From Haloplanus sp. CK5-1 (GTDB taxonomy: Archaea; Halobacteriota; Halobacteria; Halobacteriales; Haloferacaceae), in the NCBI RefSeq assembly GCF_037201915.1, contig NZ_CP147505.1:806001-870000 (forward strand): 64,000 nt of DNA. Reading direction: 5' to 3'. Below are positions 34,598 through 56,010 of the stretch, one piece after another. Position numbers and translations under genes: made by a program. The notes under the pieces were generated by a model that was not told the DNA's origin, did no database searches, and saw only the letters and a list, made by a program, of their open reading frames with translations. Each line of letters begins with the position of its first letter. Position 1 is the stretch's first letter.

Positions 34598-34941
34598 GTT
34601 ACCGGTCCTCCGTGCGCTCGGCGGGTCTCGTCATACTCTCCTTACCCGCCCGGTCGGTATATCGGTTTGGGTGTGACGCCACATTTTTCGTAGATGGGGA
34701 AGCTACAAACGAGAATGACTACTTATATTGTGACTTGTTAATAGGGAAATTGAAGATCGACTCGTACCGTGTATTAGTTCAGCATACTCGTCGCGGAACG
34801 TTTCGAGATTCCCACATCGTAGAAGTACTTCGTCTTCAGCATGAACCGTTCGGTGACTGCATAGCCTGTATAGCGAAAACGTCATTTCGAGTCGTCACGC
34901 CCCACATTCGACCAGTCTCGGAGTAACCAGACAGTATTACT
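34598..34941. other. AT-richer stretch without a supported gene
   Basis: This 344-bp stretch drops in GC content compared with the pst operon and marks the left border of the accessory region. Two short open frames exist on opposite strands, but neither has haloarchaeal codon bias or a recognisable motif. I see no RNA gene in it. Confidence 0.5.
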
Positions 34942-35023
34942 ATAGTAGCGTTTGGAACTGTTTGCACACCTGATCGCCAGACTGCATGCGATCAGGTGTG
35001 CGATGACTTACAAAGGCTACTAT
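34942..35023 (+). mobile_element. 82-bp miniature inverted-repeat element, copy 1
   Basis: Ends are ATAGTAGC and GCTACTAT. Inside, GCACACCTGATCG and CGATCAGGTGTGC form a second 13-bp inverted repeat around a short loop, so the whole element can fold into a long hairpin. It is the exact reverse complement of copy 2 at 37943-38024 over all 82 bp. It ends 10 bp after the stop of the disrupted DUF7344-like gene. It is too short to code and the mobilising transposase is not identified. Confidence 0.85.
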
Positions 35024-35531: not shown

Positions 35532-36653
35532 TAGTGATTAAGGAAGTTATTTACTGTTAGACGTAGTGGGGTCGATAATGGGGCAGTTCGACGAGATCAC
35601 GCTTGAGGAACTCTACGACCTCAAAGAGCAGATAGACGAGGGTAAGCCGCGAGAACGTGTTCTCGCGGCGATCGGGCGCAAGCAGGGCGATCAAATCGAT
35701 ACCTTGGCTGACCGCCATGGAGTCGTCGAAAAAACGATCCGCAACTGGCTCGATCGGTTCGAGGAAACACCGATCGAGCAAGCTCCCTACGATGCTCCTC
35801 GACCAGGAGGCCCAGCAAAGATCGAGGGAGAAGAGCGGGAACAGCTGTTCGAACAGTTGCAACAGCCGCCAACCGAACTCGGCTACGACCAGCAAGCGTG
35901 GTCAGCGAAGCTCCTTCTTCACCACGTCAAACAGGAGTACGACGTCGAATACCACGAGAACTACGCCTACGAGTTATTGAGAGAGGCCGGGCTGTCCTTG
36001 CGGACAGCACGGCCTCAACACCACGAGGCCGACCCCGAGGAGAAGGCCGAGTTCCAAGACACAGTCGAAAAAAACGGCCCGAACTGAGCGAGAAAACCGT
36101 CGTTGTCGTCGATCAATTCACCAAGCACGTTGGAACCGTCCAGCGGCGTGGCTGGTACCCAATCGGTTCAAATCCGACGATAGAGACTGCAACGTCCTGG
36201 AAGTCGGTGACAGTGCTTGGCGCTGTCACCGATAACGGTGATAGCCTCTTCTGCTGGACGGAAGAGAACTTGACCAGGTTCCACGGAATTCGGTTGTTAG
36301 AAGCGTTGAAAGACGAGTTCGGTGAGGAATTAGTGGTGTTTCTGGACCGAGCGGGCTACTTCTATGCGAGGGATCTCTGGGAGCACGTCAGCGGTGAGCG
36401 CGAGACCGAAACTGTCGGAGACAGTTCGGTCTCGTGCGTGCGCGGGGACAATCTCGAAGTGTGGTATTTCCCGTCAAAGCTACCCGAATTGAACGCCGTC
36501 GAAGGGTGCTGGGATCAGCTCCAGGAGTGGTTCAAATACCGCCTTATCCCAGATCTCTCGACGCTGAAAGACTCCATTACACGAGGATTGAGCGCAATCA
36601 CCGAACCAAATATCTGGCCGTATCTTACCGGTAAAGATCCGACTTAATCACTA
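35532..36653 (+). mobile_element. IS630-family insertion sequence, 1122 bp
   Basis: The element is bounded by an 11-bp perfect inverted repeat TAGTGATTAAG (35532-35542) and CTTAATCACTA (36643-36653), flanked on both sides by TGA (35529-35531 and 36654-36656). It holds one transposase read from two overlapping frames. IS630 members normally duplicate TA, and TA is also found at both ends. However, only removal of a 3-bp TGA duplication restores the reading frame of the host gene. The perfect repeats and intact frames suggest recent insertion. Confidence 0.88.
35578..36647 (+). CDS. IS630-family transposase made by -1 frameshifting
   Basis: Frame A (35578-36087) encodes the N-terminal helix-turn-helix region (IGRKQGDQIDTLADRHGVVEKTIRNWLDRF) and the linker domain. 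The catalytic part is in the -1 frame ending at 36647: TVVVVDQFTKHVG (first Asp), LVVFLDRAGYF (second Asp), and LPELNAVEGCWDQLQEWFKY (final Glu), a DDE arrangement. The frames overlap at the heptamer A AAA AAC (36069-36075), which is in phase with frame A and 10 nt before its stop at 36085. The full product would be about 355 residues. Confidence 0.88.
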
Positions 36654-37781: not shown

Positions 37782-37942
37782 CACCGTCGGCGACACCTAC
37801 GTGGGGGATGTCCGATACCACAGGGCGTCGAACCCCGTCACGCGAGCGTCGCCGACGACACGATTTCGAGCGAGTCACACACACGACCCGGGGACGGCGG
37901 ACTCGGGAGTCAGTGAATGGCTAACTCGACAGACACAGGAGT

Positions 37943-38024
37943 ATAGTAGCCTTTGTAAGTCATCGCACACCTGATCGCATGCAGTCTGGCGATCAGGTGT
38001 GCAAACAGTTCCAAACGCTACTAT
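37943..38024 (-). mobile_element. 82-bp miniature inverted-repeat element, copy 2
   Basis: Identical to copy 1 at every position, in opposite orientation. The two copies flank 2919 bp holding the IS-broken regulator and the membrane protein at 36966. Copy 2 ends 23 bp after the stop of the intact DUF7344-like gene, just as copy 1 follows the stop of the broken one. Confidence 0.88.
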
Positions 38025-38046
38025 ATTTTCGACGGGACGCCCGTCT

Positions 38047-38589
38047 TCAGAAGAGCTTGGCACGGAGCCGCGCGAGCCGTCCCCGCGCCCCGATCCGTGA
38101 GGCCATCAGTTGGTACGCCGTCGAGACGGCAAAGCAGACGAGGAACCAGGTCGCCGGAACGAGTGGGTCGACGGCGGCGAAGCCGGGTACCGAGGCCAGC
38201 GACGCGACGGTCGCGAACAGCCCCACGACGCCCAAGACGCGGTAGTACTCGCCCCATGTTACGCCCACGCGGGTGGTGACATCCATATACCGCCCGAGGT
38301 GTCTCGCTTCCGGACGGGCGGACACCACTTTCCGATCGGGATCGTAGACGACGAGCCCGAGGCCGTCCATCTTCGGGAGGTGGGTCTGGTGGAGCGCGTT
38401 GTAGACGCTCTCACGGAGCGCCCGCGGTGCAGGGCGCTGTCCGGACTCGGCCGCGGCGATCCGCTCGGACAGTTCACGCAGCGAAAGCGCCTCCGATTGG
38501 GTCCACAGTTCGGCGAGCGCCTCCCGCCGGCGCGCGTTACTCAGGACGTGATACACCTCCACCTCCGACAGGACGGCCCGCTGGAACAT
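38047..38589 (-). CDS. DUF7344-like winged-helix/membrane regulator, intact
   Basis: A 180-residue paralogue of the gene split by the IS. The N-terminal domain VYHVLSNARRREALAELW..LSLRELSERIAAAES..VYNALHQTHLPKMDGLGLVVYDPDRKVV has a winged-helix character. Two membrane helices follow (VVGLFATVASLASVPGFAAVDPL, VPATWFLVCFAVSTAYQLM). The ATG at 38589 has a GGAGG ribosome site. It is divergent from the surface cluster across a 358-bp region carrying the CGGTACG array, so it is a good candidate regulator of that cluster. Confidence 0.78.
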   Translation of the reverse strand: MFQRAVLSEVEVYHVLSNARRREALAELWTQSEALSLRELSERIAAAESGQRPAPRALRESVYNALHQTHLPKMDGLGLVVYDPDRKVVSARPEARHLGRYMDVTTRVGVTWGEYYRVLGVVGLFATVASLASVPGFAAVDPLVPATWFLVCFAVSTAYQLMASRIGARGRLARLRAKLF

Positions 38590-38947: not shown

Positions 38948-39964
38948 ATGACGCACGACAACGACCCCAAACTGTACAGCCTCTCACGCCGCAAGATGCT
39001 CGCCGGCCTCGGTGCCGTCGGCTTCGCTTCCGCGGGCGCCGGTCTCGGTACGAGCGCGTTGTTCAGCGACCAGGAGACGTTTGAGGACAACACGATCACG
39101 GCGGGCACCCTCGATATGACGGTCAGCGCGACGCAGGTCGCGAACAGCTCCGACGCGCTTGGGGAGATCTACTACGAAAACCTCGGCCTTCAGGCCACGA
39201 TCGGTGCATCGCCCGGTGACGGCGACGGCGTCCGGCTGCAGGCCGACGACGTCAAGCCCGGCGACTGGGTGATCTACTGCTTCGAGATCGACGTCGAGGA
39301 CAACCCCGGGTACGTGACGATCCACGCGGACAACCTCCTCGAGAGCGGCGGGGCCAACCCCGAACCGGAGCAGGAAGCGGAAGGCAACAGCAGCAACAGC
39401 GCCGACCTCGGCGAGGCGCTGCTCGTGACCCACTGGGGCACGTTCAACGGAACTGACCCGACCTATGACGGCAGCGGCAACGTCACGAACGCGGGGACGA
39501 TCGCCGGCAACTCGCGCCTCGACCTCGAGGATCTCGACAGCACGACCAACGTTGCCGGCGGCATCGCACAAGGGGCGTACGGCGTGCCCGCACTCGACGG
39601 GACGGCGACAGTCGGCTCGACCCCCGTCGAGTACACCACCCTGCGGGAGTTCGTCGAGACCTACGACACCGATCCCACGAGCGCGCCGTTCAACAACACC
39701 CAGGACCCGCCGAACAGCTCCGGCGTCCTCATCCGCAACGACACGGCCGGCGGCTCGCCAGCACCGGCTCTCCAAGTCGGCGGCTCGAACACCGGACTCG
39801 GCTCCGGCACGTTCACCTACTACATGCTGATCGAGCTCCCCTTCGACGTCGGTAACGAGGTCCAAGGCGACAGCGTCCAGTTCGACCTCGGCTGGAGCAC
39901 CGAACAGGTCCGCAACAACGGCGACCCACGGAGTGGCATCACGTTCAACAATTCGACCTCGTAG
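38948..39964 (+). CDS. TasA/camelysin-like surface protein with SipW-type signal
   Basis: A 338-residue secreted protein. The signal SLSRRKMLAGLGAVGFASAGAGLGTSALFSDQETFEDNTITAGTLDM has the SipW-type cleavage region ALFSD followed by the conserved first strand. The end QGDSVQFDLGWSTEQVRNN matches the last strand of the TasA family. Two cysteine-poor Asn/Ser-rich loops lie between. TasA-like proteins build extracellular fibres by passing the N-terminal strand to the next subunit. No VWA domain is present, so it is the best candidate for the main fibre subunit. First gene after the regulated promoter. Confidence 0.78.
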   Translation: MTHDNDPKLYSLSRRKMLAGLGAVGFASAGAGLGTSALFSDQETFEDNTITAGTLDMTVSATQVANSSDALGEIYYENLGLQATIGASPGDGDGVRLQADDVKPGDWVIYCFEIDVEDNPGYVTIHADNLLESGGANPEPEQEAEGNSSNSADLGEALLVTHWGTFNGTDPTYDGSGNVTNAGTIAGNSRLDLEDLDSTTNVAGGIAQGAYGVPALDGTATVGSTPVEYTTLREFVETYDTDPTSAPFNNTQDPPNSSGVLIRNDTAGGSPAPALQVGGSNTGLGSGTFTYYMLIELPFDVGNEVQGDSVQFDLGWSTEQVRNNGDPRSGITFNNSTS

Positions 39965-39996
39965 GGCGTTCGACGCCACCCGACACCCATTCGGAG

Positions 39997-40027
39997 CACG
40001 ACACACGCGTTCTCGCGTGCAGTCGTG
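39997..40027 (+). other. Strong intercistronic hairpin
   Basis: CACGAC (39997-40002) pairs with GTCGTG (40022-40027), and inside it CACGCG pairs with CGCGTG around a TTCT loop. It lies 33 bp after the first surface gene and may slow or end transcription, or protect the upstream mRNA so that the first gene is expressed more than the rest. Confidence 0.5.
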
Positions 40028-40038
40028 GCACGATCCCT

Positions 40039-40120
40039 ATAGTAGCCTTTGTAAGTCATCACACACCTGATCGCATGACTGCGTTCGATCAGGTGTGCGG
40101 ACAGTTACAAACGCTACTAT
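40039..40120 (-). mobile_element. 82-bp miniature inverted-repeat element, copy 3
   Basis: Same length and ends as copies 1 and 2. It differs from copy 2 mainly in the hairpin loop (about 40076-40086) and at a few single bases. It sits between the first and second surface genes, inside a spacer whose flanks otherwise resemble the spacers of the next genes, so it was probably inserted after the gene tandem formed. Confidence 0.83.
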
Positions 40121-40160
40121 AGCCCGGCACTCACGCGGTGCTCGCTCGACGGTCGTGAAA

Positions 40161-40200
40161 CGGCGGTTCGACTCCGCCGGTGGGCTTCCCCCAGTGGGGA
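40161..40200 (+). promoter_or_regulatory. Conserved leader stem-loops, copy 1
   Basis: CGGCGG-TTCGACT-CCGCCG (40161-40179) is a 6-bp stem with a 7-nt loop shaped like a tRNA T-loop. It is followed by TCCCC-CAGT-GGGGA (40187-40200). The same pair occurs before the gene at 42296, with a compensating base-pair change. It ends 47 nt before the start codon at 40248. Confidence 0.6.
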
Positions 40201-40247
40201 CTGGACTCGTCTCGGCGACGGTCCCACCCGAACGAGGGAGACAGACC

Positions 40248-42158
40248 ATGACAGAACACGAATTCGACCTCTCACGGCGGAAGGTGCTCGGCGCGATCGG
40301 AGCCATCGGTGCGGCGTCAGCCGGCGCCGGCTTCGGCACGAGCGCCCTATTCAGCGATCAGGAGACGTTCGAGGACAACCGACTCGTCGCCGGCGAACTC
40401 GACCTCACAATGGACTGGGAGGAGCACTACTCTTTCCCCCAGATATACGAGGCGTTCGACGATCCGGCGGCCGGCCTCGACGTCCGAACGGAAGAACCGA
40501 ACGTTCCGGACCTGTACCAGCGGTATCCTGCGGGCGCGACCGACGGAACCGACGGCGACGGTTCGATCTGGGTCAACAGGGAGGATGTCCCGACGTATAT
40601 GGACAACACCGCTATCGACTCGTTCCCGGATGCCGGGAACGACGGGACGGCGGAGTTCCCGGTCGAGGAGATGGCCGAAAACGGGACGCGCGCCTGTGAA
40701 CTGTTGGCCAACGTCGGCGGCGAGAGCGGCGGCCTCTCGAACTTCGGCGCAGAGACCGTCGGCCGAACCGACAACGAAGACACCCGTCTCGACGCCGGCG
40801 AGGGAGCGCCGCTCATCAATCTCCACGACGTCAAACCCGGGGACTTCGGCGAGGTTACGTTCAGTATTCACCTCTGCAGCGACCCGGGAAACCCCGGCTA
40901 CGTCTGGATGAACATGCCCGGCGGCCTCACCGATCACGAGAACGACGTGACCGAACCGGAGGCGGCCGCCCCCGGCGAAGACGATCTGCCGGGTGACGCG
41001 GAGACGAGCGGCGAGCTCGCGGAGAACATCGAGACCGCGCTGTGGTACGACACGGACTGCGATAACCTCCCGGACGATGGGGGACAGCCGATCGATCTCA
41101 TCGCGCTCGCCGACGTCTCCGGGTCGATAGACCCCCCCGAGATGGACGACATCGAGGACGGGGCGAACGCCTTCGTCGAGGAGCTTCCGACCGACGGAAC
41201 CGTCGAGGCGGGGTTCATCACCTTCGCCGGTCCGGGCGAAGGATCCGCTTCCGGCGTGACCGTCCAGCTGGACCTCGGGCCGATCGATCCGTTCTTCCAG
41301 AACGACGACCCGACCCAGCCGGGCGACATCGGGCAATTCCTCCCCGAGAGCGGGAACGGAAGCACGCCGATGCCGGCAGCCCTCGACGTCGCACGCCAGA
41401 TCCTCAACGCGGAAGCGCGCCCGAACGCCCGGAAAGTGATCCTGCTCGTCACCGACGGCGGCCCCGACTACCCGGACGTCACCTACGAGGCGACGACCGG
41501 GACGGACACGTACACGGTCCCCTCGCAGTATGTCGACGCCGGAACCAACGACGGGACGAGCTCGAATGAGGAGCAGGACCAGACCGCCGACGTCGCCGAC
41601 AGCATCGACGACGACGAGATTGCGATCTTCACCGTCGCGGTCGGCGGGACGGGGGTGAATTCGATCTTCGAGGGGCCACAGACGCTGGGCTCGTTCCTCG
41701 AGAACCGGATCGCGACCTCCCCGAACGAGGCCTTCGACGCGACCGTCGCCAACGGCAACGGCGGCAACCTCGAGGGGATCGCCCAGACGATCGGGAACCG
41801 GATCTCCACGCTGGCCAGCACCGGGAACGCGGAGAAGATCGTGTTCCGGGGCACCCTCGAGGAACTCGAAACCGCGTTCGGGACCACAGAGCATGGGATC
41901 CCGCTCGATGCCGACGGTGACCCGTCGTTCGACGAGTTCGCCGATGACGCAGAGACCGACCCGCGTCGGGACTGCTTCCTCGCCGGGGCGACGTACTGCT
42001 TCGGGTTCTCGTGGTGGCTCCCGCTGGACGTCGGCAACGAAGTCCAGTCGGATTCGGTCACCTTCGATCTGGGCTTCTACACCGAACAGTGCCGGAACAA
42101 CGACGGTGGCGGCGGGCAGCCAGTCACACCGACGGCTGGTGGCGACACGGGACAGTAA
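40248..42158 (+). CDS. TasA-like surface protein with inserted VWA domain (1)
   Basis: A 636-residue secreted protein. The signal DLSRRKVLGAIGAIGAASAG..GTSALFSDQETFEDNRLVAGELDL is SipW-type. A first beta domain with LINLHDVKPGDFGEVTFSIHLC follows. A VWA domain occupies about residues 282-500: IDLIALADVSGSIDPPEM gives the MIDAS DxSGS, STPMPAALDVA the threonine and VTDGGPDYPDV the last aspartate. The end CFGFSWWLPLDVGNEVQSDSVTFDLGFYTEQCRNN returns to the TasA last strand. Thus the VWA sits in a loop of the fibre-type domain and could act as adhesin or metal-dependent binder. Its start has a GGGAG ribosome site. Confidence 0.82.
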   Translation: MTEHEFDLSRRKVLGAIGAIGAASAGAGFGTSALFSDQETFEDNRLVAGELDLTMDWEEHYSFPQIYEAFDDPAAGLDVRTEEPNVPDLYQRYPAGATDGTDGDGSIWVNREDVPTYMDNTAIDSFPDAGNDGTAEFPVEEMAENGTRACELLANVGGESGGLSNFGAETVGRTDNEDTRLDAGEGAPLINLHDVKPGDFGEVTFSIHLCSDPGNPGYVWMNMPGGLTDHENDVTEPEAAAPGEDDLPGDAETSGELAENIETALWYDTDCDNLPDDGGQPIDLIALADVSGSIDPPEMDDIEDGANAFVEELPTDGTVEAGFITFAGPGEGSASGVTVQLDLGPIDPFFQNDDPTQPGDIGQFLPESGNGSTPMPAALDVARQILNAEARPNARKVILLVTDGGPDYPDVTYEATTGTDTYTVPSQYVDAGTNDGTSSNEEQDQTADVADSIDDDEIAIFTVAVGGTGVNSIFEGPQTLGSFLENRIATSPNEAFDATVANGNGGNLEGIAQTIGNRISTLASTGNAEKIVFRGTLEELETAFGTTEHGIPLDADGDPSFDEFADDAETDPRRDCFLAGATYCFGFSWWLPLDVGNEVQSDSVTFDLGFYTEQCRNNDGGGGQPVTPTAGGDTGQ

Positions 42159-42217
42159 CCGATCACCGCTCTCTCCCATTCGGATCCGACCCGCGCCGCG
42201 CGGATCGGACGGCCGCC

Positions 42218-42258
42218 CGACGGTTCGAAGCCGTCGATGGGCTTCCCCAAGACGGGGA
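42218..42258 (+). promoter_or_regulatory. Conserved leader stem-loops, copy 2
   Basis: CGACGG-TTCGAAG-CCGTCG (42218-42236) matches copy 1 except that one G-C pair is replaced by A-T on both sides, a compensating change. TCCCC-AAGAC-GGGGA (42244-42258) gives the second hairpin. The ATG at 42296 is 37 nt further. The block upstream (from 42177, CATTCGGATCCGAC) is also shared with the next spacer. Confidence 0.6.
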
Positions 42259-42295
42259 CCGACCGTCGTGCGACGGTCACACACGAGGAAAACCA

Positions 42296-43987
42296 ATGAA
42301 AGACTACGAATTCGACCTCTCCCGACGCAAGGTCCTCGGCGCGATCGGTGCTATCGGCGCGGCGTCAGCGGGCGCCGGCCTCGGCACGAGCGCGCTGTTC
42401 AGCGACCAGGAAACGTTCGAAGACAACCGACTCGTCGCGGGCGAACTCGATCTCAAGATGGACTGGGAGGAACACTACTCCTTCCCGCAGTACTACGGGT
42501 TCGACGATCCGACGGCCGGGCTGGATGTCACCCGATCCGAACCCACAGACACGACCGACTACGCCGCGCTCCCCGATCCGTCGAACCCGCTCGTCTGGGT
42601 CCACAACGACGACCTCAACGCGTATATGGACAACACTGCGATCGAGGCCTACCCGGACGTGGACGACGACGGGATTCAGGATCCCTTCAGAATGGACGGG
42701 GTCGGCGACTTCTGTACCGACGGCGCCGACCTTAACGGCGGGCTCGATCCCTTCGGCGACGGTGCCTTCCGAACCAACAACGTCGATACCTATACACCCG
42801 AGACGGAGACGATCGAACCGCTCGTCAACCTCTCGGACGTCAAACCGGGCGATTTCGGGGAGCTCACCCTCAGTCTCCACCTCTGTGACAACCCGGGATA
42901 CATCTGGATGAACGGCGGTCTCGTCGAGGCCCGCGAGAGCGGCATCACCGAAGCCGAGAGCGACTCCAGCGACGCTGGCCCCGCAGATGAGGTCGTGACC
43001 GATCTCACCGAGAGCGACGGCGTCGAACTCCTCGACGAAATCCAGACCGTCGCCTGGTACGACGGCGACTGCGACAACGTCCTCGACGGCAGCCGGGAAG
43101 CCACCGGAGGCGAATTCGCAGACGTCGTCATCGTGATGGACGTCTCCGGCTCGATGGACGGCGAACTCGCCGACGCGCAGGCCGGCGCGAACGAACTCGT
43201 CGCGGCCCTCGGGCCGAACGACCAGGTCGGACTCGTGTCCTTCTCCAGTTCCTCACCGAGCACGTCGTCCTCATCGCTCGATGTCGGACTGACGAGCAAC
43301 CACAACGACGTTTCGACGGCCATCAACGGCCTCTCCGCCGGTGGCGGGACGAATATCGAAGCCGCGATCGAACGAGCACATGACGAACTCACAGTCGCCG
43401 ATATCTTCACCGAGTACACCGAGAGCGGGAGCGCCCGCCCCGGCGCACGGCAGATTATGGTCTTCCTCGGCGACGGCTCGGAGAACGCCGGAACGGACGT
43501 GACTGATTCGGGTAACGAGGACCCCGTCCAAGAGGCCTCCAACGCGAAGGCGGACGGCATCGAGATCTTCACCATCGCATACGGTACGAGCGCGCCGAGC
43601 CTCTCGGATCTGGCGAGCGACCCGAACAATCCGCCCGAGAGCCCAGAGTCCCAGTACGCATTCGGGGCGACGACGGAGGACGTCGAGACCGTCTTCCGGA
43701 ACATCGGCGGGACCGTCAGCAGCGGCGGCGAGGAGGTCTTCCACCAAGGATCGCTCCGCGACCTCCTGCTCAGGCTCGAAGACGGTGACGGGATCCCACT
43801 CGACGGCGACATCGAGACCGAGGGCCGGTCCTGTTTCGCCGGCCTTCAGACTCACTGTGTCGGACTCGCGTGGTGGATCCCCACCGAGGTCGAGAACCAG
43901 ATCCAGTCGGACTCGGTCAGCTTCGACGTCGGGTTCTACGCCGAGCAGTGCCGGAACAACGAGCAGACCCCGGAGGCGGAAGTCTGA
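42296..43987 (+). CDS. TasA-like surface protein with inserted VWA domain (2)
   Basis: A 563-residue paralogue of the previous gene. Residues 1-66 are nearly identical (DLSRRKVLGAIGAIGAASAG, FSDQETFEDNRLVAGELDLK). The beta domain has LVNLSDVKPGDFGELTLSLHLC. The VWA domain spans about residues 275-455: VVIVMDVSGSMDGELADAQ, GGGTNIEAAIERA and MVFLGDGSENAG form a complete MIDAS. The end CVGLAWWIPTEVENQIQSDSVSFDVGFYAEQCRNN closes the TasA fold. The pair clearly arose by tandem duplication that included the leader. Confidence 0.83.
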   Translation: MKDYEFDLSRRKVLGAIGAIGAASAGAGLGTSALFSDQETFEDNRLVAGELDLKMDWEEHYSFPQYYGFDDPTAGLDVTRSEPTDTTDYAALPDPSNPLVWVHNDDLNAYMDNTAIEAYPDVDDDGIQDPFRMDGVGDFCTDGADLNGGLDPFGDGAFRTNNVDTYTPETETIEPLVNLSDVKPGDFGELTLSLHLCDNPGYIWMNGGLVEARESGITEAESDSSDAGPADEVVTDLTESDGVELLDEIQTVAWYDGDCDNVLDGSREATGGEFADVVIVMDVSGSMDGELADAQAGANELVAALGPNDQVGLVSFSSSSPSTSSSSLDVGLTSNHNDVSTAINGLSAGGGTNIEAAIERAHDELTVADIFTEYTESGSARPGARQIMVFLGDGSENAGTDVTDSGNEDPVQEASNAKADGIEIFTIAYGTSAPSLSDLASDPNNPPESPESQYAFGATTEDVETVFRNIGGTVSSGGEEVFHQGSLRDLLLRLEDGDGIPLDGDIETEGRSCFAGLQTHCVGLAWWIPTEVENQIQSDSVSFDVGFYAEQCRNNEQTPEAEV

Positions 43988-44086
43988 GTTACTGACCCAC
44001 CTCCGGCTCGCAGAACAACTGGTTCGACCACGAACACGGACCCACTCGGATCCGACGCGTCGCGTCCGCGACTTCGGCGGCCGAGA

Positions 44087-44105
44087 CGGCGGTTCGACGC
44101 CGCCG
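44087..44105 (+). promoter_or_regulatory. Conserved leader stem-loop, copy 3
   Basis: CGGCGG-TTCGACG-CCGCCG repeats the first stem-loop of copies 1 and 2. The second hairpin is not kept here; GGTGGGCC..CACCCC follows instead. The block at 44042-44060 (CACTCGGATCCGACGCG) matches the spacer before 42296. The ATG of the pseudogene is 22 nt further. Confidence 0.55.
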
Positions 44106-44127
44106 GTGGGCCTTCACGAACACCCCA

Positions 44128-44580
44128 ATGAAAAAACACCTCTTCTGACGACGGATACTCACGGCCGCGGCAGGCGCAGGCCTCATCGCAGTCGGTGCTG
44201 CGCCGGCCCGAGCGGCCGCCGGCCTCGCGCCACTGGAACTGAACCAGACCGCTCAGATCCAGTCGGGCGACTCGCTGCCAGCTGTCGCGCTCGACTGGCG
44301 CGAGACGGTCAATGTGGCCGTCGTCGAGGACACTGATCTGGCTACGGTCTCGATCGAGGTAACTGGCGGGGCCGGCGTCGTCGTCGTCGACGAGGCGGTG
44401 TTGCCCGGCGATACCGGCGCCGTCACCCTGCGCGCGACCCTCGTCGAAGACGGCGACTCGCTCCAGAACGCCGAGCTGGCGCTCCACCTCGCGCTAACGG
44501 CGACCGCTGAGAACGGAACGACCGAGCCCGAGCGGCGCACCCTTAGGCGAGCGGCGAACTCGACTGCCACCGACAACTGA
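44128..44580 (+). pseudogene. Small secreted protein with in-frame TGA in its signal peptide
   Basis: From ATG 44128 the frame reads MKKHLF, then TGA (44146-44148), then RRILTAAAGAGLIAVGAAPARAAAGLAPL and on to a stop at 44578-44580 (151 codons). The part after the stop is a clear signal peptide plus a small beta domain (VSIEVTGGAGVVVVDEAV, LQNAELALHLALTATAENG). There is no other start codon before 44314. A TCA-to-TGA change would explain it (F-S-RRIL as in the neighbours). It keeps the conserved leader, so it lost function recently or the base call is wrong. Confidence 0.7.
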
Positions 44581-44810
44581 CACCGACCCCGGTGGCTGCC
44601 GCCGCCGCTCCCGCAGCGCGCCCCGCGCCGCCGCGGTCGGCCGCTCGGGCCGGCACCATCGTCCCGGTAACGACGCCATGCCGCGGAGTACGGGCGTCGT
44701 ATCGGTTGTGCAGCCGACCCATACCTATGCCCTCCGATGTCGTATCGCCCACAGAACACGGATCGGATGCCCGATCCACCCACCGACCCGGCGTATCCGG
44801 GACAACTCAC

Positions 44811-45623
44811 ATGACACTCACACGTCGAGAACTGTTGATGGGAATCGGAGCCGGTGCGATCGGTGTCGGGGGACTCTCCCTCCGTCGGCGCACACCCCCC
44901 TTCTCTCAGTACACCTATGCCGCACCGGAGGACGACACCGACGACCGGCGGCTCCGTGTCGCTTGGTACGAAACATACAACGGCGGTTTCGTCGCGAACC
45001 ACGCCGGAACGAACGATAGCCTCGACACGACGCTCGATCCCGATAGCGGGCCCGAATACGTCGAGGAGGCGACCTTCGTGACTGACGCGACCGGCCCGGT
45101 TCTCTCCGTGGGGAACGTCCTCCCCCGAGACACGGGCACGCTGGTCGTCGGCCTCGAAGTAGTCGACGGTAGCGACGCGGAAGCGCTCGATGTGTGGTTC
45201 CGCGCGTCGCTGACTGACGACGGTGAAAACGGCGTGAACGGGCCCGAACGGGCCGCCGGCGACACCACGGACGACGACGGCGAACTCGACGAAGTCGCTG
45301 TCGTCGAGGTGTGGCTCGACGGCTCGCCGCTGGGGGGCTGCAACGGCACGAAGGAGTTCGACGAGACGCTCGAATCGCCGCTCGTCGCTCCCGCCCCCTT
45401 CGCCGATGCGTTCGCGCCGACAGCCGATGCTGGTGACGCCGAGGGACTACTCGCGCTGGATTGCATTCCACCGGGGTCGTTGCGGTGCGTCGCGCTCCGG
45501 TGGGAGATCCCGGCCGAAACGGGGAACCAAGCCCAAGGCGACTCCCTCGGCTTCGAGTTCGCGTTCGGCGGCGGCCCCTGCGACGGCGACAGCCCCTTCA
45601 CCGTCGGGGGGACACAACGATGA
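44811..45623 (+). CDS. TasA-like surface protein (270 residues)
   Basis: The N-terminus MTLTRRELLMGIGAGAIGVGG is a Tat-type or SipW-type signal. It lacks the typical FSD after it and has PPFSQYTYA instead. The body has LRVAWYETYNGGFVANH, ending CIPPGSLRCVALRWEIPAETGNQAQGDSLGFEFAFGG, the TasA last-strand motif. Two cysteine pairs may form disulfides. The 230-bp gap before it holds no gene that I can support. Its stop overlaps the next start (ATGA), the first of four overlaps that bind 44811-48948 into one unit. Confidence 0.7.
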   Translation: MTLTRRELLMGIGAGAIGVGGLSLRRRTPPFSQYTYAAPEDDTDDRRLRVAWYETYNGGFVANHAGTNDSLDTTLDPDSGPEYVEEATFVTDATGPVLSVGNVLPRDTGTLVVGLEVVDGSDAEALDVWFRASLTDDGENGVNGPERAAGDTTDDDGELDEVAVVEVWLDGSPLGGCNGTKEFDETLESPLVAPAPFADAFAPTADAGDAEGLLALDCIPPGSLRCVALRWEIPAETGNQAQGDSLGFEFAFGGGPCDGDSPFTVGGTQR

Positions 45624-46912
45624 TCCTGAGCCGACGCCGCGTGCTGGCAGCGCTGGCCGCGGCTGGTGGCGCAGGCGCGCTCGCGGGGACCGGAACCGCC
45701 GCGGTGTTTCGAGACAGCGAGCGCTCTCGCGCGTCGATCACGGCCGGTACCGTCGACCTAGTCGTCGAGTACGAACTCCTGACCGGCCCCGGTACGGGCG
45801 GCCCCGGCAGCAGCGGCACCGTCGACGGCCCCCGCATCACGCTCCCGGTTGATTCACTCGCCCCCAATGACGACGCCGGGAGTATGCTCCTCACGTTCGC
45901 GCTCCCACAACGGGGTGACGCCATCAACAACCCCGCTGCGCTGTGGCTCGCGACCGACTGCCCCGTGCCCGAGGCGACAGGGCTGGGGGAGGCGATCCGG
46001 GTAACGCTGTCGTACGCCGACTGCGAGTCGGGGACGCCGCTTTCCCGGATCGTCAGCGGTTCGCTCCGGGAGGTCGCCGACGACCTCCGTGACGGTCGCC
46101 GTGTCGACAGCGACCCGACGACCACCGAGCCCGACTGCTTGGTGGAGGAGGTCTGCCTGCTCGTCGAGTACGAACTCGCCGGCTACGTGGGGACCGAAAC
46201 GGTCGACTTTCCGTTGTGGTTCGCGGCGGTCCAGTGCCGGCACGCCACCCCGACGAACCCTTTCGCCGGCATCGACGCCGACCCGTGTCCCCCCGGCGAC
46301 CCCTGCACGTGTTGCCGGACGCTCGGCAAACTGGAACTCGACTCCGGCACCCAGCCCGGGATCGACGATAGCTACGTCGAGCCCGGAACCTACGTCTTCA
46401 CCGATGGCGATACCGACTACGGCCTGGAGATCTACGACACCGCGGACAAAGACGCCGGCACCGAGACCGTCGGCGTCGCCTTCCGGCTCGTGCACCTCGT
46501 CGGCGACGCCGTCCCGAGCCTCTGTACGGTGGCCATCAAGAACGGCCCCGGGTTCGAGCAGTACGACCGCGACGACGACACGCTCGCCGACACCGCCGGA
46601 CTTCCCGGCAGCGACGCCGACGGGCTCGTCTACGCGCCGGACGGGAGCGCGATCAGCCACGTCACGGTCTGCGTCTGCACCACCGAGCCGGAGGCGGACT
46701 GTCCCGGGTGTACGGATCCCTCGTTCACGAACTCCGGCTCCGGCGGCCCGAGCGGGGACGACGATGCTGACAGAGACGAGCGCGAACCGAGTGGGGACGC
46801 CGACGGATCCACCGGTAGACTGGGTGGCCGCGGTGGCACCGAGCCCGACGGTTCCGACGACCCCGCCGGACGCAGCGGTCCGTCGGCGGCTCCGCCCGGA
46901 GGTGACCGATGA
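45620..46912 (+). CDS. Cys-rich TasA-like surface protein (430 residues)
   Basis: The signal MILSRRRVLAALAAAGGAGALAGTGTAAVFRDSERSRASITAGTVDLVVEYEL has the SipW pattern (AVFRDSE.. then the first strand). The TasA-like domain ends VGTETVDFPLWFAAVQCRHA near residue 215. A second domain follows with CPPGDPCTCC at its start, GTYVFTDGDTDYGLEIYD and CVCTTEPEADCPGC, and then a disordered Asp/Gly/Ser tail. The extra Cys-rich domain may cap or anchor a fibre. It overlaps both neighbours by 4 nt. Confidence 0.72.
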   Translation: MILSRRRVLAALAAAGGAGALAGTGTAAVFRDSERSRASITAGTVDLVVEYELLTGPGTGGPGSSGTVDGPRITLPVDSLAPNDDAGSMLLTFALPQRGDAINNPAALWLATDCPVPEATGLGEAIRVTLSYADCESGTPLSRIVSGSLREVADDLRDGRRVDSDPTTTEPDCLVEEVCLLVEYELAGYVGTETVDFPLWFAAVQCRHATPTNPFAGIDADPCPPGDPCTCCRTLGKLELDSGTQPGIDDSYVEPGTYVFTDGDTDYGLEIYDTADKDAGTETVGVAFRLVHLVGDAVPSLCTVAIKNGPGFEQYDRDDDTLADTAGLPGSDADGLVYAPDGSAISHVTVCVCTTEPEADCPGCTDPSFTNSGSGGPSGDDDADRDEREPSGDADGSTGRLGGRGGTEPDGSDDPAGRSGPSAAPPGGDR

Positions 46913-47838
46913 CCCGGCTCCCGACGCCGTCACTCCCGAGCGCCAGACAGTTGCTCGCGATGATCGTCCTGCTCGCGGCAGTCTCGCCGTTCGTGGTCTT
47001 CGCCGTCCCGCAAGTGATCGGGGCCGACGAGGGGTTCGTCGTCCTCTCAGGGAGTATGGAACCGGCGCTGTCGACCGGTGATGTCGTGATTGTTGATGCC
47101 TCCGCGCCCGTGACGGTTGGCGACATTATCACCTACCGGACTGGCGCCGACGGCGTCCCGACGACCCACCGCGTCATCGGCGTGCAAGACGGCGAATACG
47201 AGACGAAGGGTGACGCGAACGGGAACGCCGACTCGGGCTTGGTCGGCTCCGAGGCGATCATCGGACGGGTCGTCCTCGCGATCCCCGTCATCGGCCACGT
47301 GATCCTGTGGGCGAACACGCCCGTGGGATACGTCACGCTGGTCGTCGGCCCGCTGGTGTTGCTCGGCGCGAACGAACTCTTCGCGTGGGCTCGGCGGGAG
47401 CCGACCGGAAGCGAACGCGAGGATCCAGCGTCCGAACAGGGATCGTCACCGGACCCGGACACGGCGGACGGCGACGCGACCGCAGACGACTGGGGGGTCC
47501 CGGAGGCTACGGTATCGGAGGTCAACGGCGGGCTGCAACCCACCCGGTCTGCCACGGTCGCCGCGGTCGATTTAAAGCTCACGCTCTTGGCGATGGGAGC
47601 GTTGTGCACGTACGCAGGGTGGAACGTGTACCGCGAGTTCTCCCTGACCGCAGCGCCGACCCCGATTTCGGTCGGGGCGCTGACGGCGGGCTTCCTCGGC
47701 CTCCTGTTCGCAGGGTCGGTGACGGTGACCGCATGGCGGGCGGCCCGCGCATCGCGCTCCGAACCGTCCGCTACGAGCACCGACTCGGTCCCCGCTCTGA
47801 CGGACGGCAGCGGGGGGGCGGAGGCGGACGATGAGTGA
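46909..47838 (+). CDS. SipW-like type I signal peptidase
   Basis: A 309-residue membrane peptidase of the archaeal/ER Ser-His type. Ser49 lies in VVLSGSMEPALSTGDVVIV, His87 in TTHRVIGV and Asp102 in TKGDANGNAD. The first membrane helix is at residues 14-36 and others at about 118-155, with a disordered acidic linker and two more helices at the C-terminus (about 220-270). In Bacillus SipW processes TasA and TapA and is encoded beside them. Its place inside this cluster of SipW-type substrates makes the same role likely here. Confidence 0.87.
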   Translation: MTRLPTPSLPSARQLLAMIVLLAAVSPFVVFAVPQVIGADEGFVVLSGSMEPALSTGDVVIVDASAPVTVGDIITYRTGADGVPTTHRVIGVQDGEYETKGDANGNADSGLVGSEAIIGRVVLAIPVIGHVILWANTPVGYVTLVVGPLVLLGANELFAWARREPTGSEREDPASEQGSSPDPDTADGDATADDWGVPEATVSEVNGGLQPTRSATVAAVDLKLTLLAMGALCTYAGWNVYREFSLTAAPTPISVGALTAGFLGLLFAGSVTVTAWRAARASRSEPSATSTDSVPALTDGSGGAEADDE

Positions 47839-48808
47839 AATGCTCGCCTTCATCTGCGCGCTGTTTGTCGTGTTCGCCTCGACAACCGCCGGCGTGTCGG
47901 TCGCGCTGCTGTCGGATGAGGAGTCGGTTTCGATCGGCTTCAGCGCCGATGTTCCGAACCCGGACGCAGTCGCGCTCGACGGCGATCCGGAGGCTACGTT
48001 GGACGCTGCAAGCGATGGACTAACGGCCAGCGTCGACTCGAATGATACCTCTCGGAACGCGACGGGAGAACCCCCAAGATCCGACGGGAACAGTTCGTCC
48101 AGTTTCAGCGGGACTCAGGACGGGAACGCCACGACTGCAGTCGACGAGAGCGACGGGAACGTCACCGACGACAACTCGGGGTCGCCTGTGTCCACCCCAC
48201 AAGACGATGGATCGGAGTCGACCGACGACGCGTCCGACGAGGACGTGGATGACGAACGGACCGATTCGGTCGAATCCGATGACAACGGCGACGCGTCCAC
48301 CGATGGCAGGGATTCATCGGCCGACGGAGAGGGATCATCTGAAAAAGCTGACTCCACGTCTGAGTCCGACGGCGGGTCCGACGATAGTGGCTCGTCTGAG
48401 TCCGACGGCGGGTCCGACGATAGTGGCTCGTCTGAGTCCGACGGCGGGTCCGACGATAGTGGCTCGTCTGAGTCCGACGGCGGGTCCGACGATAGTGGCT
48501 CGTCAGGGTCCACCGACAGTGGCTCGTCTGAGTCCGACGGTGGGTCCGACGATAGTGGCTCGTCTGAGTCCGACGGCGGGTCCGACGATAGTGGCTCGTC
48601 TGAGTCCGACGGTGGGTCCGATTCTAACGGATCTGGCTCCGACGGTGGCTCCGACGGTGGATCCGATGGTGGCTCCGACGGTGGCTCCGATAGTGGCTCC
48701 GACGGTGGATCCGATGGTGGATCCGATGGTGGCTCCGACGGTGGCTCCGATTCTAACGGGTCTGGATCCACGAACGACAGCTCGTCCGACGACTCCGGTA
48801 CCACCTGA
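47831..48808 (+). CDS. Acidic Ser-Asp-Gly repeat protein with SipW-type N-terminus
   Basis: A 325-residue protein. The N-terminus MLAFICALFVVFASTTAGVSVALLSDEESVSIGFSAD is a membrane segment ending in the ALLSD-type site seen in the other cluster proteins. The rest is disordered: a Thr/Ser/Asp-rich part, then twelve-residue repeats SESDGGSDDSGS and shorter SDGG repeats. There is no folded domain and no lysine-rich part. It could be a stalk, a glycosylated spacer or a fibre accessory like TapA. It overlaps the peptidase gene by 8 nt. Confidence 0.75.
   Translation: MSEMLAFICALFVVFASTTAGVSVALLSDEESVSIGFSADVPNPDAVALDGDPEATLDAASDGLTASVDSNDTSRNATGEPPRSDGNSSSSFSGTQDGNATTAVDESDGNVTDDNSGSPVSTPQDDGSESTDDASDEDVDDERTDSVESDDNGDASTDGRDSSADGEGSSEKADSTSESDGGSDDSGSSESDGGSDDSGSSESDGGSDDSGSSESDGGSDDSGSSGSTDSGSSESDGGSDDSGSSESDGGSDDSGSSESDGGSDSNGSGSDGGSDGGSDGGSDGGSDSGSDGGSDGGSDGGSDGGSDSNGSGSTNDSSSDDSGTT
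48359..48755 (+). repeat. In-frame 36-bp and 12-15-bp tandem repeats
   Basis: Four 36-bp units (48359-48502), a 24-bp variant, two more 36-bp units (48527-48598) and one variant unit lead into many 12-15-bp units coding SDGG. All are multiples of three, so gain or loss of units keeps the frame and changes only the length of the stalk. The units are almost identical at DNA level, which points to recent slippage. Confidence 0.9.
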
Positions 48809-48948
48809 TGGTGCCCGGCAGAACGAGTCGAGGATCTCTCCGCCTCCCCGGGACAGCCCGTGACGCCCACAGGCGGAATGTCCTCGTGATCCTCATCTAT
48901 CTCTTCGTGTTCATTCTGCTCGTCGGCGTCGTTGTCGCGTTCCTGTGA
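48808..48948 (+). CDS. 46-residue single-pass membrane protein closing the cluster
   Basis: ATG 48808 shares its A with the upstream TGA. The frame encodes MVPGRTSRGSLRLPG, a basic stretch, and one membrane helix VLVILIYLFVFILLVGVVVAFL ending at the stop. The positive-inside pattern puts the N-terminus in the cytoplasm. The start-stop overlap suggests real coupled translation. Function is unknown; an accessory role to the signal peptidase is possible. Confidence 0.6.
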   Translation: MVPGRTSRGSLRLPGTARDAHRRNVLVILIYLFVFILLVGVVVAFL

Positions 48949-50649: not shown

Positions 50650-50779
50650 GCGCAGTCGGGGGGTAGACGCGACAACTCGCTGGTAGACGGGCCTCCAGCG
50701 GGCACCCGATTCGTCGGGACGACATGTGGCCCGCCGGCGTCGCCGGCGGGGCTGAATCGCAAGCGCCCGTGGACAACCC

Positions 50780-51370
50780 ATGGCACGAAGCTTCTACTCG
50801 CACATCCGAGAGGCGTGGCGGGACCCCGACGACGGGGACCTCGCCGAACTGCAGTGGCAACGAAAACAGGAGTGGCGCGACCAGGGCGCCATCGAACGGA
50901 TCGAGCGTCCGACCCGCCTCGACAAGGCTCGCAACCTCGGCTACAAGGCCAAACAGGGCATCGTCGTGGCTCGCACCGCCGTCCGCAAGGGGGGGGCCCG
51001 CAAGCGCCGGTTCAAGGCCGGTCGCCGCTCGAAGCGTCAGGGCGTCAATCGGATCGGTCGCCGTAAGAGTATCCAGCGCATCGCCGAGGAGCGCACGTCG
51101 CGGAAGTACCCCAACCTCCGCGTACTCAACTCCTACTGGGTCGGGGAAGACGGCTCCCAGAAGTGGCACGAAGTGATCCTCGTCGACCCCCACCACCCGG
51201 CCATCGAGGCCGACGACGACCTGAACTGGATCTGTGACGACTCTCACAAGGGTCGGGCGTTCCGCGGGCAGACGAGCGCCGGCCAGAAGGGTCGCGGCCA
51301 GCGAAAGCGCGGGAAGGGTACGGAACACACCCGACCCAGCATCGGCGGCGACCGGCGTCGCGGCAAGTAA
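50780..51370 (+). CDS. rpl15e: 50S ribosomal protein L15e
   Basis: A 196-residue basic protein starting [16 protein letters not shown], with the conserved [36 protein letters not shown] block and [31 protein letters not shown]. It is the eukaryote/archaea-specific L15e of the large subunit. Length is normal. The 130-bp leader is GC-rich with no clear TATA box. Confidence 0.97.
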
Positions 51371-55093: not shown

Positions 55094-55166
55094 GGGACCG
55101 TGGGTTAGCCTGGTATACTTCGGGCCTTGGGTGCCCGTGACCCCGGTTCGAATCCGGGCGGTCCCA
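55094..55166 (+). tRNA. tRNA-Pro (anticodon TGG)
   Basis: The 73-nt sequence folds as a standard cloverleaf. The acceptor stem is GGGACCG with CGGTCCC and discriminator A. The anticodon arm CGGGC-CTTGGGT-GCCCG reads TGG at positions 34-36. The T-arm is CCCGG-TTCGAAT-CCGGG. No CCA is encoded and no intron is seen. A CTTTA box upstream and a T-run downstream agree with a transcription unit. Confidence 0.93.
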
Positions 55167-55915: not shown

Positions 55916-56010
55916 GTTACAGATGGGCCCTTGTGGGGTCGAAGCCTCCCCGGCGTCGACGTTTCCGGGCTACCCGAGTCGTCACAGACGGACCCTTGTG
56001 GGGTCGCAGC
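55916..56010 (+). CRISPR. Degenerate repeat-spacer-repeat unit (mini-CRISPR)
   Basis: Two 30-bp repeats (55916-55945 and 55981-56010) flank a 35-bp spacer (55946-55980). They share 26 of 30 positions, differing at repeat positions 3, 9, 12 and 27. Both contain CCCTTGTGGGG in the middle and end in AGC, closely resembling the type I-B repeats of haloarchaea such as Haloferax, which are also 30 bp. Spacer length is normal for haloarchaea. No cas gene is in the window. It is either the remains of an array or a dedicated guide-RNA gene of the CreA/CreR type. Confidence 0.65.

Follow-up and report, generated by a model that had tools for sequence, protein, structure and literature searches.

The window analysed here comprises 64,000 nucleotides (nt) of the forward strand of Haloplanus sp. 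CK5-1 (contig NZ_CP147505.1, positions 806,001 to 870,000) and comes from a haloarchaeal genome of 3.24 Mb in a single contig. It contains a cluster of genes encoding secreted proteins with SipW-type signals, two of them with VWA domains, followed by a signal peptidase gene; the cluster genes lie on the plus strand, behind a divergent regulator. Three of these genes, one of them decayed, are preceded by short tRNA-like leaders (t-elements). With moderate confidence, we favour as the best explanation of the whole a TasA-family fibre or adhesin complex with its own peptidase and a transcript processed at the t-elements. The features, in window coordinates, are as follows:

38047-38589, minus strand: divergent DUF7344 regulator of winged-helix type (PF24035, E 3.4e-26), in the same place in most relatives' loci
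38948-39964, plus strand: A338, TasA/camelysin-like subunit, first gene, with no tRNA-like leader (PF12389, TIGR04088, model closest to TasA)
40037-40122, no strand assigned: 86-nt palindromic miniature inverted-repeat transposable element (MITE) between A338 and V1, outside the system (genome copy count)
40143-40188, plus strand: t-element of V1, T-arm at 40162-40178 (covariance model R2, 52.8 bits, E 2.5e-9)
40248-42158, plus strand: V1, SipW-signal TasA-like protein with an insert carrying VWA and a metal ion-dependent adhesion site (MIDAS), ATG start (PF00092, TIGR04088)
42203-42245, plus strand: t-element of V2, T-arm at 42219-42235 (R2, 28.1 bits, E 8.9e-4)
42296-43987, plus strand: V2, SipW-signal TasA-like protein with VWA/MIDAS insert, ATG start (PF00092, predicted model)
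44063-44114, plus strand: t-element of the decayed subunit gene psi, T-arm at 44088-44104 (R2, 40.7 bits, E 1.3e-6)
44128-44580, plus strand: psi, a decayed subunit gene of C270 type (78% over 130 amino acids to an intact Halobellus clavatus gene)
about 44811-45623, plus strand: C270, Tat-like N-terminus (Tat, twin-arginine translocation) and TasA-like last-strand motif NQAQGDSLGFEFAF (54% to the gene in the same position of locus L079)
45620-46912, plus strand: D430, SipW-signal protein just 5′ of the peptidase (TIGR04088)
46909-47838, plus strand: Sec11/SipW-type Ser-His-Asp signal peptidase (TIGR02228, 2.6e-24)
47831-48808, plus strand: Ser/Asp/Gly-rich (SDG) protein with one N-terminal membrane segment, read from the sequence; SDG-rich counterparts are similarly placed in several loci
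48808-48948, plus strand: 46-codon open reading frame (ORF) with one membrane segment, a doubtful gene (weak coding score)

Coding-type codon usage was found in the ORFs of A338, V1, V2, C270, D430, the peptidase and the SDG protein. The last four are linked by overlaps of 4-8 nt, which makes their translational coupling plausible; the original prediction, made from the letters and ORFs of this DNA, had proposed such coupling for the peptidase and the SDG protein. The 46-residue membrane protein that it added to the coupled genes has a weak coding signal and no relative was found in searches, so that this ORF may not be a gene. In substance that account was right, although psi, the MITE and the leaders of V1, V2 and psi had been overlooked.

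Signals, predicted fold and spread of the subunits

Four proteins exceed the cut-off of TIGR04088, the family of SipW-type signals: A338 (33.8 bits), V1, V2 and D430 (22.2 bits, cut-off 19). C270, which had been counted as a fifth, gave no match in this search, and its N-terminus is Tat-like with an RR pair. An (S/T/N)RR motif occurs in 172 of 197 SipW-signal proteins, and their export by the Tat pathway is therefore likely as judged from sequence. The camelysin family PF12389 recognizes A338 (25.4 bits, cut-off 22.5), with V1, V2 and D430 scoring under the cut-off in the same scan. The last-strand motif N..Q.DS..F...F, said at first to be shared by all five proteins, is present in V1, V2 and C270 and, with W replacing the last F, in A338; no clean copy was found in D430, and the extension EQ[CV]RNN is restricted to A338, V1 and V2. 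Among relatives, the motif is present in 85/197 SipW-signal proteins and in none of the shuffled sequences. V1 and V2 each carry the complete VWA/MIDAS domain ascribed to them (PF00092, E 2.6e-8 and 4.3e-19, respectively), with the DxSxS signature (DVSGS) at position 289 of V1 and 282 of V2.

The structure of A338 was predicted with AlphaFold on a family alignment with 20 relatives (mean predicted local distance difference test score, pLDDT, 72.6). In a Foldseek search of the PDB, the sole match under E 1e-3 was the TasA fibre 8aur (E 6e-4). With VIA-align, three TasA structures ranked first to third (Z 7.5-7.8, next unrelated row 5.9), the best being 5of2 with 160 aligned residues at 4.2 Å and a Z of 7.8, which is in the tool's common range for unrelated folds; 8aur scored 7.7, and the Sulfolobus thread and Pyrobaculum bundling pili appear in the same list at Z 4.8-4.9. 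Because a Z below 8 is indecisive by itself, the case for TasA rests on its standing above the other rows together with the sequence signals. A profile search of 177,635 PDB sequences lends support: its best two matches were archaeal AbpX (E 0.04) and TasA, both sub-threshold, and the alignment with TasA includes the KPGD strand as well as the final one. A single-sequence PDB search with A338 gave only weak matches to laccase, which were set aside in favour of the profile and fold results. TasA came first in both structural searches with A338, rather than an unrelated fold, and a kinship of the subunits with TasA is supported, in line with the original prediction.

The model of V2 (pLDDT 82.8) has the same outer strand order as A338. 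Its VWA domain (about residues 238-445 in the mature model) follows the fifth strand and precedes the last two, and in this model sits in a loop of the TasA-like sandwich, as first suggested. The V2 fold search was dominated by VWA matches and has no independent bearing on the TasA-like part. Among solved structures, the VWA domain itself comes closest to Mfa5, the tip protein of type V pili (Z 23.6, 181 aligned, 2.2 Å), so that an adhesin role for the VWA subunits fits the predicted structure.

Proteins resembling V2, with VWA and SipW signal, occur in 124/391 Halobacteria genomes and 43/86 genera. Whole-genome searches were far better at finding them than a V2 scan of genome contigs, which gave three haloarchaeal loci and unrelated VWA proteins. 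We read 44 loci with a simple gene caller based on codon usage. Most of them share one order: a divergent DUF7344 regulator, one to five SipW-signal genes, a C270-like gene, a D430-like gene and the peptidase, the last two cluster genes varying in order and an SDG-rich gene being sometimes added. Annotated plasmids of Halorubrum ezzemoulense, Haloarcula halophila and Halomontanus rarus carry the cluster as well. The search for the same gene order in other haloarchaea, which had been put forward as a check, thus succeeded, and the proposed likeness to the tapA-sipW-tasA layout is supported by dozens of loci in which SipW/TasA-like genes stand in the same order with a SipW/Sec11-type peptidase.

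These data also bear on a different reading, which we consider somewhat unlikely: the products may be single camelysin-like adhesins, anchored or secreted, that form no polymer, with the VWA proteins acting alone and the peptidase merely releasing them. Inserts do differ between loci, SipW proteins elsewhere carrying Laminin_B or beta-helix regions, and VWA-SipW genes stand alone, apart from clusters, at L063, L069 and L071. Single adhesins, however, fit poorly with several paralogues of the same predicted fold per operon, in which the N-terminal segment and last strand are conserved as in TasA. In TasA, the most conserved residues lie at the protomer interface (PMC10151520). A fibre or adhesin complex remains our preferred reading of the subunits.

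tRNA-like leaders of the subunit genes

A repeat search revealed a conserved 39-nt stretch 5′ of V1, V2 and psi. The corresponding region of relatives shows that the element consists of a T-arm (5-bp stem, loop TTCGANY) abutting an acceptor-like helix, typically ACCCAC with GTGGGT, and of a middle part 9 to about 65 nt long. In 73/80 elements this part has its first GG at offset 2-4, where a D-loop-like contact to the T-loop could form. In the V2 element, the letters allow an alternative acceptor, CCCAT (about 42175) with ATGGG, which may be a compensatory change. In the test for covariation, 95.1% of cells are paired and there are 53 double changes, a result that none of 500 shuffles reached; the covariation score is likewise higher than in any shuffle or slid control, on an alignment that was fitted to the model. 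Searches with Rfam at gathering and relaxed thresholds assigned the leaders to no known family, giving just weak matches at chance level, and the Rfam tRNA model did not match them on the plus strand. A tRNA-Arg called by ARAGORN at 42188-42258 on the minus strand is a false positive that overlaps the palindromic V2 leader.

A covariance model (R1) built from eight equal-length leaders of other genomes found, in this genome, the operon leaders, two identical matches abutting two 5S rRNA genes (E 1.7e-5) and one weak match to the T-arm only. For one of the two 5S-adjacent matches, an Rfam check confirmed the rRNA. Applied to 22 genomes, model R2 gave 89 matches, of which 46 lie 56-113 nt 5′ of a SipW signal, 15 abut 5S rRNA exactly, 14 more lie in clusters and 14 elsewhere; SipW genes, SipW clusters or 5S rRNA thus account for 75/89. 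At least seven of the 14 matches elsewhere precede secreted proteins with RR signals, several of them DUF1102-like. With the 5S elements counted in, the element was found in 62/116 sampled genomes.

To the 44 loci we also applied a motif test that does not depend on the covariance model. Elements precede 83/197 SipW-signal genes, 5/29 C-like genes and 0/579 others (regulator, peptidase or other), whereas shuffled upstream regions contain 0.02 on average. Operon-internal subunit genes with a gap of at least 60 nt have an element in 79/123 cases, first genes in 6/38 and peptidase genes in 0/34 (internal versus first genes, Fisher p 1.8e-7, only indicative for related sequences). Such a preference for internal over first genes, with none at peptidase genes, is what one would expect of intercistronic processing sites, and we read the elements as probable sites of this kind. 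RNase P and tRNase Z are the enzymes that process t-elements in Haloferax (PMC4326828, PMC4946936), the known substrate there being the 5S t-element.

The t-elements at L090, L091, L093, L094 and L096 stand 5′ of secreted proteins with RR signals that belong to DUF1102 or come close to it (GAFTSVxADR motif), in separate operons.

It is conceivable, though in our view unlikely, that the leader is not cut and that its tRNA-like fold, or a protein binding the T-arm and elbow, controls a hairpin at the ribosome site. In most loci a short stretch of fixed length separates the element from the start codon, and a hairpin of at least 4 bp, usually GC-rich and beside the start codon, follows within 28 nt in 90/96; moreover, the yjdF riboswitch offers a precedent of a tRNA-like fold that steers translation (PMC9142559). 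Against such translational control stand the known processing role of the same structure before 5S rRNA and the preference for internal over first genes, which suits processing better; neither a ligand nor a pairing switch was identified. We retain processing as the preferred reading of the leaders.

Proposed maturation and mechanism

The peptidase scores 85.9 bits against the archaeal signal peptidase I family TIGR02228 (cut-off 51.85), has the predicted catalytic residues in place (Ser in SGSM, 47; His in THRV, 86; Asp in KGD, 100) and has SEC11A among its PDB sequence matches (1.2e-9), in agreement with the Ser-His-Asp signal peptidase first recognized here. Against NF046067, the Bacillus SipW equivalog, it reached 75.1 bits (cut-off 190) and is thus a relative rather than the Bacillus equivalog. 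A general signal peptidase might instead cut the SipW-type signals and leave D430 or some other substrate to the co-encoded enzyme: two further peptidase matches exist in the genome, and some VWA-SipW genes have no adjacent peptidase. We find this quite unlikely, given that the cluster peptidase is present in most loci and is the genome's best TIGR02228 match.

Beyond the window, at genome positions 2870600-2874121, two DUF1102 genes lie about 1-3 kb 5′ of the second TIGR02228 peptidase, with which they possibly form a parallel surface system.

For the fibre with processed transcript that we favour, we infer the export route, fibre formation, adhesion, RNA cleavage and the use of cleavage for subunit ratios as follows. 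A338-type subunits would be exported, probably by Tat, and the co-encoded Sec11/SipW-like peptidase would remove their SipW-type signal, the freed N-terminal segment then complementing the next subunit, whose beta-sandwich is incomplete. V1 and V2 would be subunits of the same fold displaying a metal-dependent VWA adhesion domain, at the tip or the side. The operon is likely controlled by the divergent DUF7344 protein. Its polycistronic RNA would bear t-elements, minimal tRNA mimics structured like the one before 5S rRNA, ahead of subunit genes inside the operon. At these elements the transcript would probably be cut by RNase P and tRNase Z, so that every subunit mRNA would begin with a short 5′ stretch holding a small hairpin and the ribosome site. 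We extend this 'tRNA punctuation' to fibre operons of both SipW/TasA and DUF1102-like kinds, the two enzymes yielding subunit mRNAs with set 5′ ends and ratios. We hold this idea evenly balanced between right and wrong, because Hoelzle et al. reportedly predicted, in 2012, 47 other tRNA-like elements in H. volcanii, of which those tested are said to have remained uncut in vitro.

Further points weigh against the proposed mechanism. We know of no filament, cleavage product or phenotype for this system. The A338 model is of moderate confidence, with a Z shared by unrelated folds, and its N-terminal donor segment is a low-confidence part. Some internal subunit genes lack the element and six first genes have one, none was found in the compact version of the cluster in Haloarcula halophila, and the relatedness of the sequences makes the p-values overstate independence. 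Finally, the MITE between A338 and V1 could split the transcription units. A chance presence of the elements in these gaps, as leftovers of tRNA genes, as sites of integrase attachment or as copies of a mobile repeat, is very improbable: tRNA 3′ halves are common integration sites and a real MITE does lie within this operon, but orientation and position are strict, changes are compensatory, none of the 579 other genes has an element, and a pattern search of the genome yields one leader and two 5S elements only.

The MITE is a near-perfect 86-nt palindrome (CTATAGTAGC ... GCTACTATAG) with 28 genome copies, 12 of them identical; further copies lie in the window at about 34940-35023 and 37942-38025. 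In psi, a TGA stands at codon 7, inside the SRR motif, and the C-terminal half is gone, whereas the t-element is retained; the nonsense codon may be a sequencing error. The intact counterpart belongs to the Halobellus clavatus locus L035. Together, MITE insertion and psi decay indicate that the cluster is undergoing rearrangement.

Elsewhere in the window, two ORFs at 35578-36647 resemble transposase halves (a helix-turn-helix part, then a DDE-like part), with counterparts near 2.94 Mb of the same genome. An eL15 ribosomal protein leader (RF03144) occupies 50705-50763, directly 5′ of an ORF at 50780. Two Rfam matches to the CRISPR-DR24 repeat, about 65 nt apart and the only two copies seen, lie at 55916-56010, near a tRNA-Pro at 55094.

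Comparison with known systems

Archaeal fibres of TasA type, pili with VWA tips and the t-element of 5S rRNA are each already known, separately. In the openly readable literature, subscription papers not being covered, we found neither a SipW/TasA/VWA operon of haloarchaea nor any t-element in an mRNA leader described. To our knowledge, a layout with tRNA-shaped probable processing sites before individual subunit genes is known nowhere else. If the proposed mechanism is true, haloarchaea would possess a fibre or matrix system of TasA type, equipped with integrin-like display domains and a dedicated maturation enzyme, and bacterial and archaeal biofilm fibres would become linked. It would also explain what t-elements beyond 5S rRNA are for, and offer a simple model, open to testing, of how the enzymes of tRNA processing could fix the subunit stoichiometry of a surface structure.

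With Bacillus tapA-sipW-tasA and sipW-calY, the cluster has in common SipW-type signals, an ER-type signal peptidase in the operon and a TasA-like (here predicted) beta-sandwich with conserved N-terminal segment and last strand. Unlike these operons, it is archaeal, its signals are of RR (Tat-like) type, it has many paralogues, VWA or other display domains are placed within the fold, and its RNA bears tRNA-like leaders; no TapA was seen, no search having been aimed at it. The Pyrobaculum AbpA/AbpX pili and Sulfolobus threads (Saci_0406) are archaeal donor-strand fibres, as is proposed here. We know of no t-elements, VWA subunits or cluster with SipW-type signal and peptidase for them. VWA-tipped pili, with Mfa5 at the type V tip or SpaC at the sortase tip, likewise place VWA/MIDAS on a pilus-type subunit, but their scaffolds and assembly are unrelated to the TasA-like cluster. 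The closest counterpart of the leaders is the Haloferax 5S t-element, which has the same acceptor helix and T-arm with TTCGANY loop and matches the same covariance model; it also shares a 3′ end that abuts the downstream RNA. The elements described here differ in that they lie in mRNA leaders of subunit genes and often have an extra variable middle and a following hairpin.

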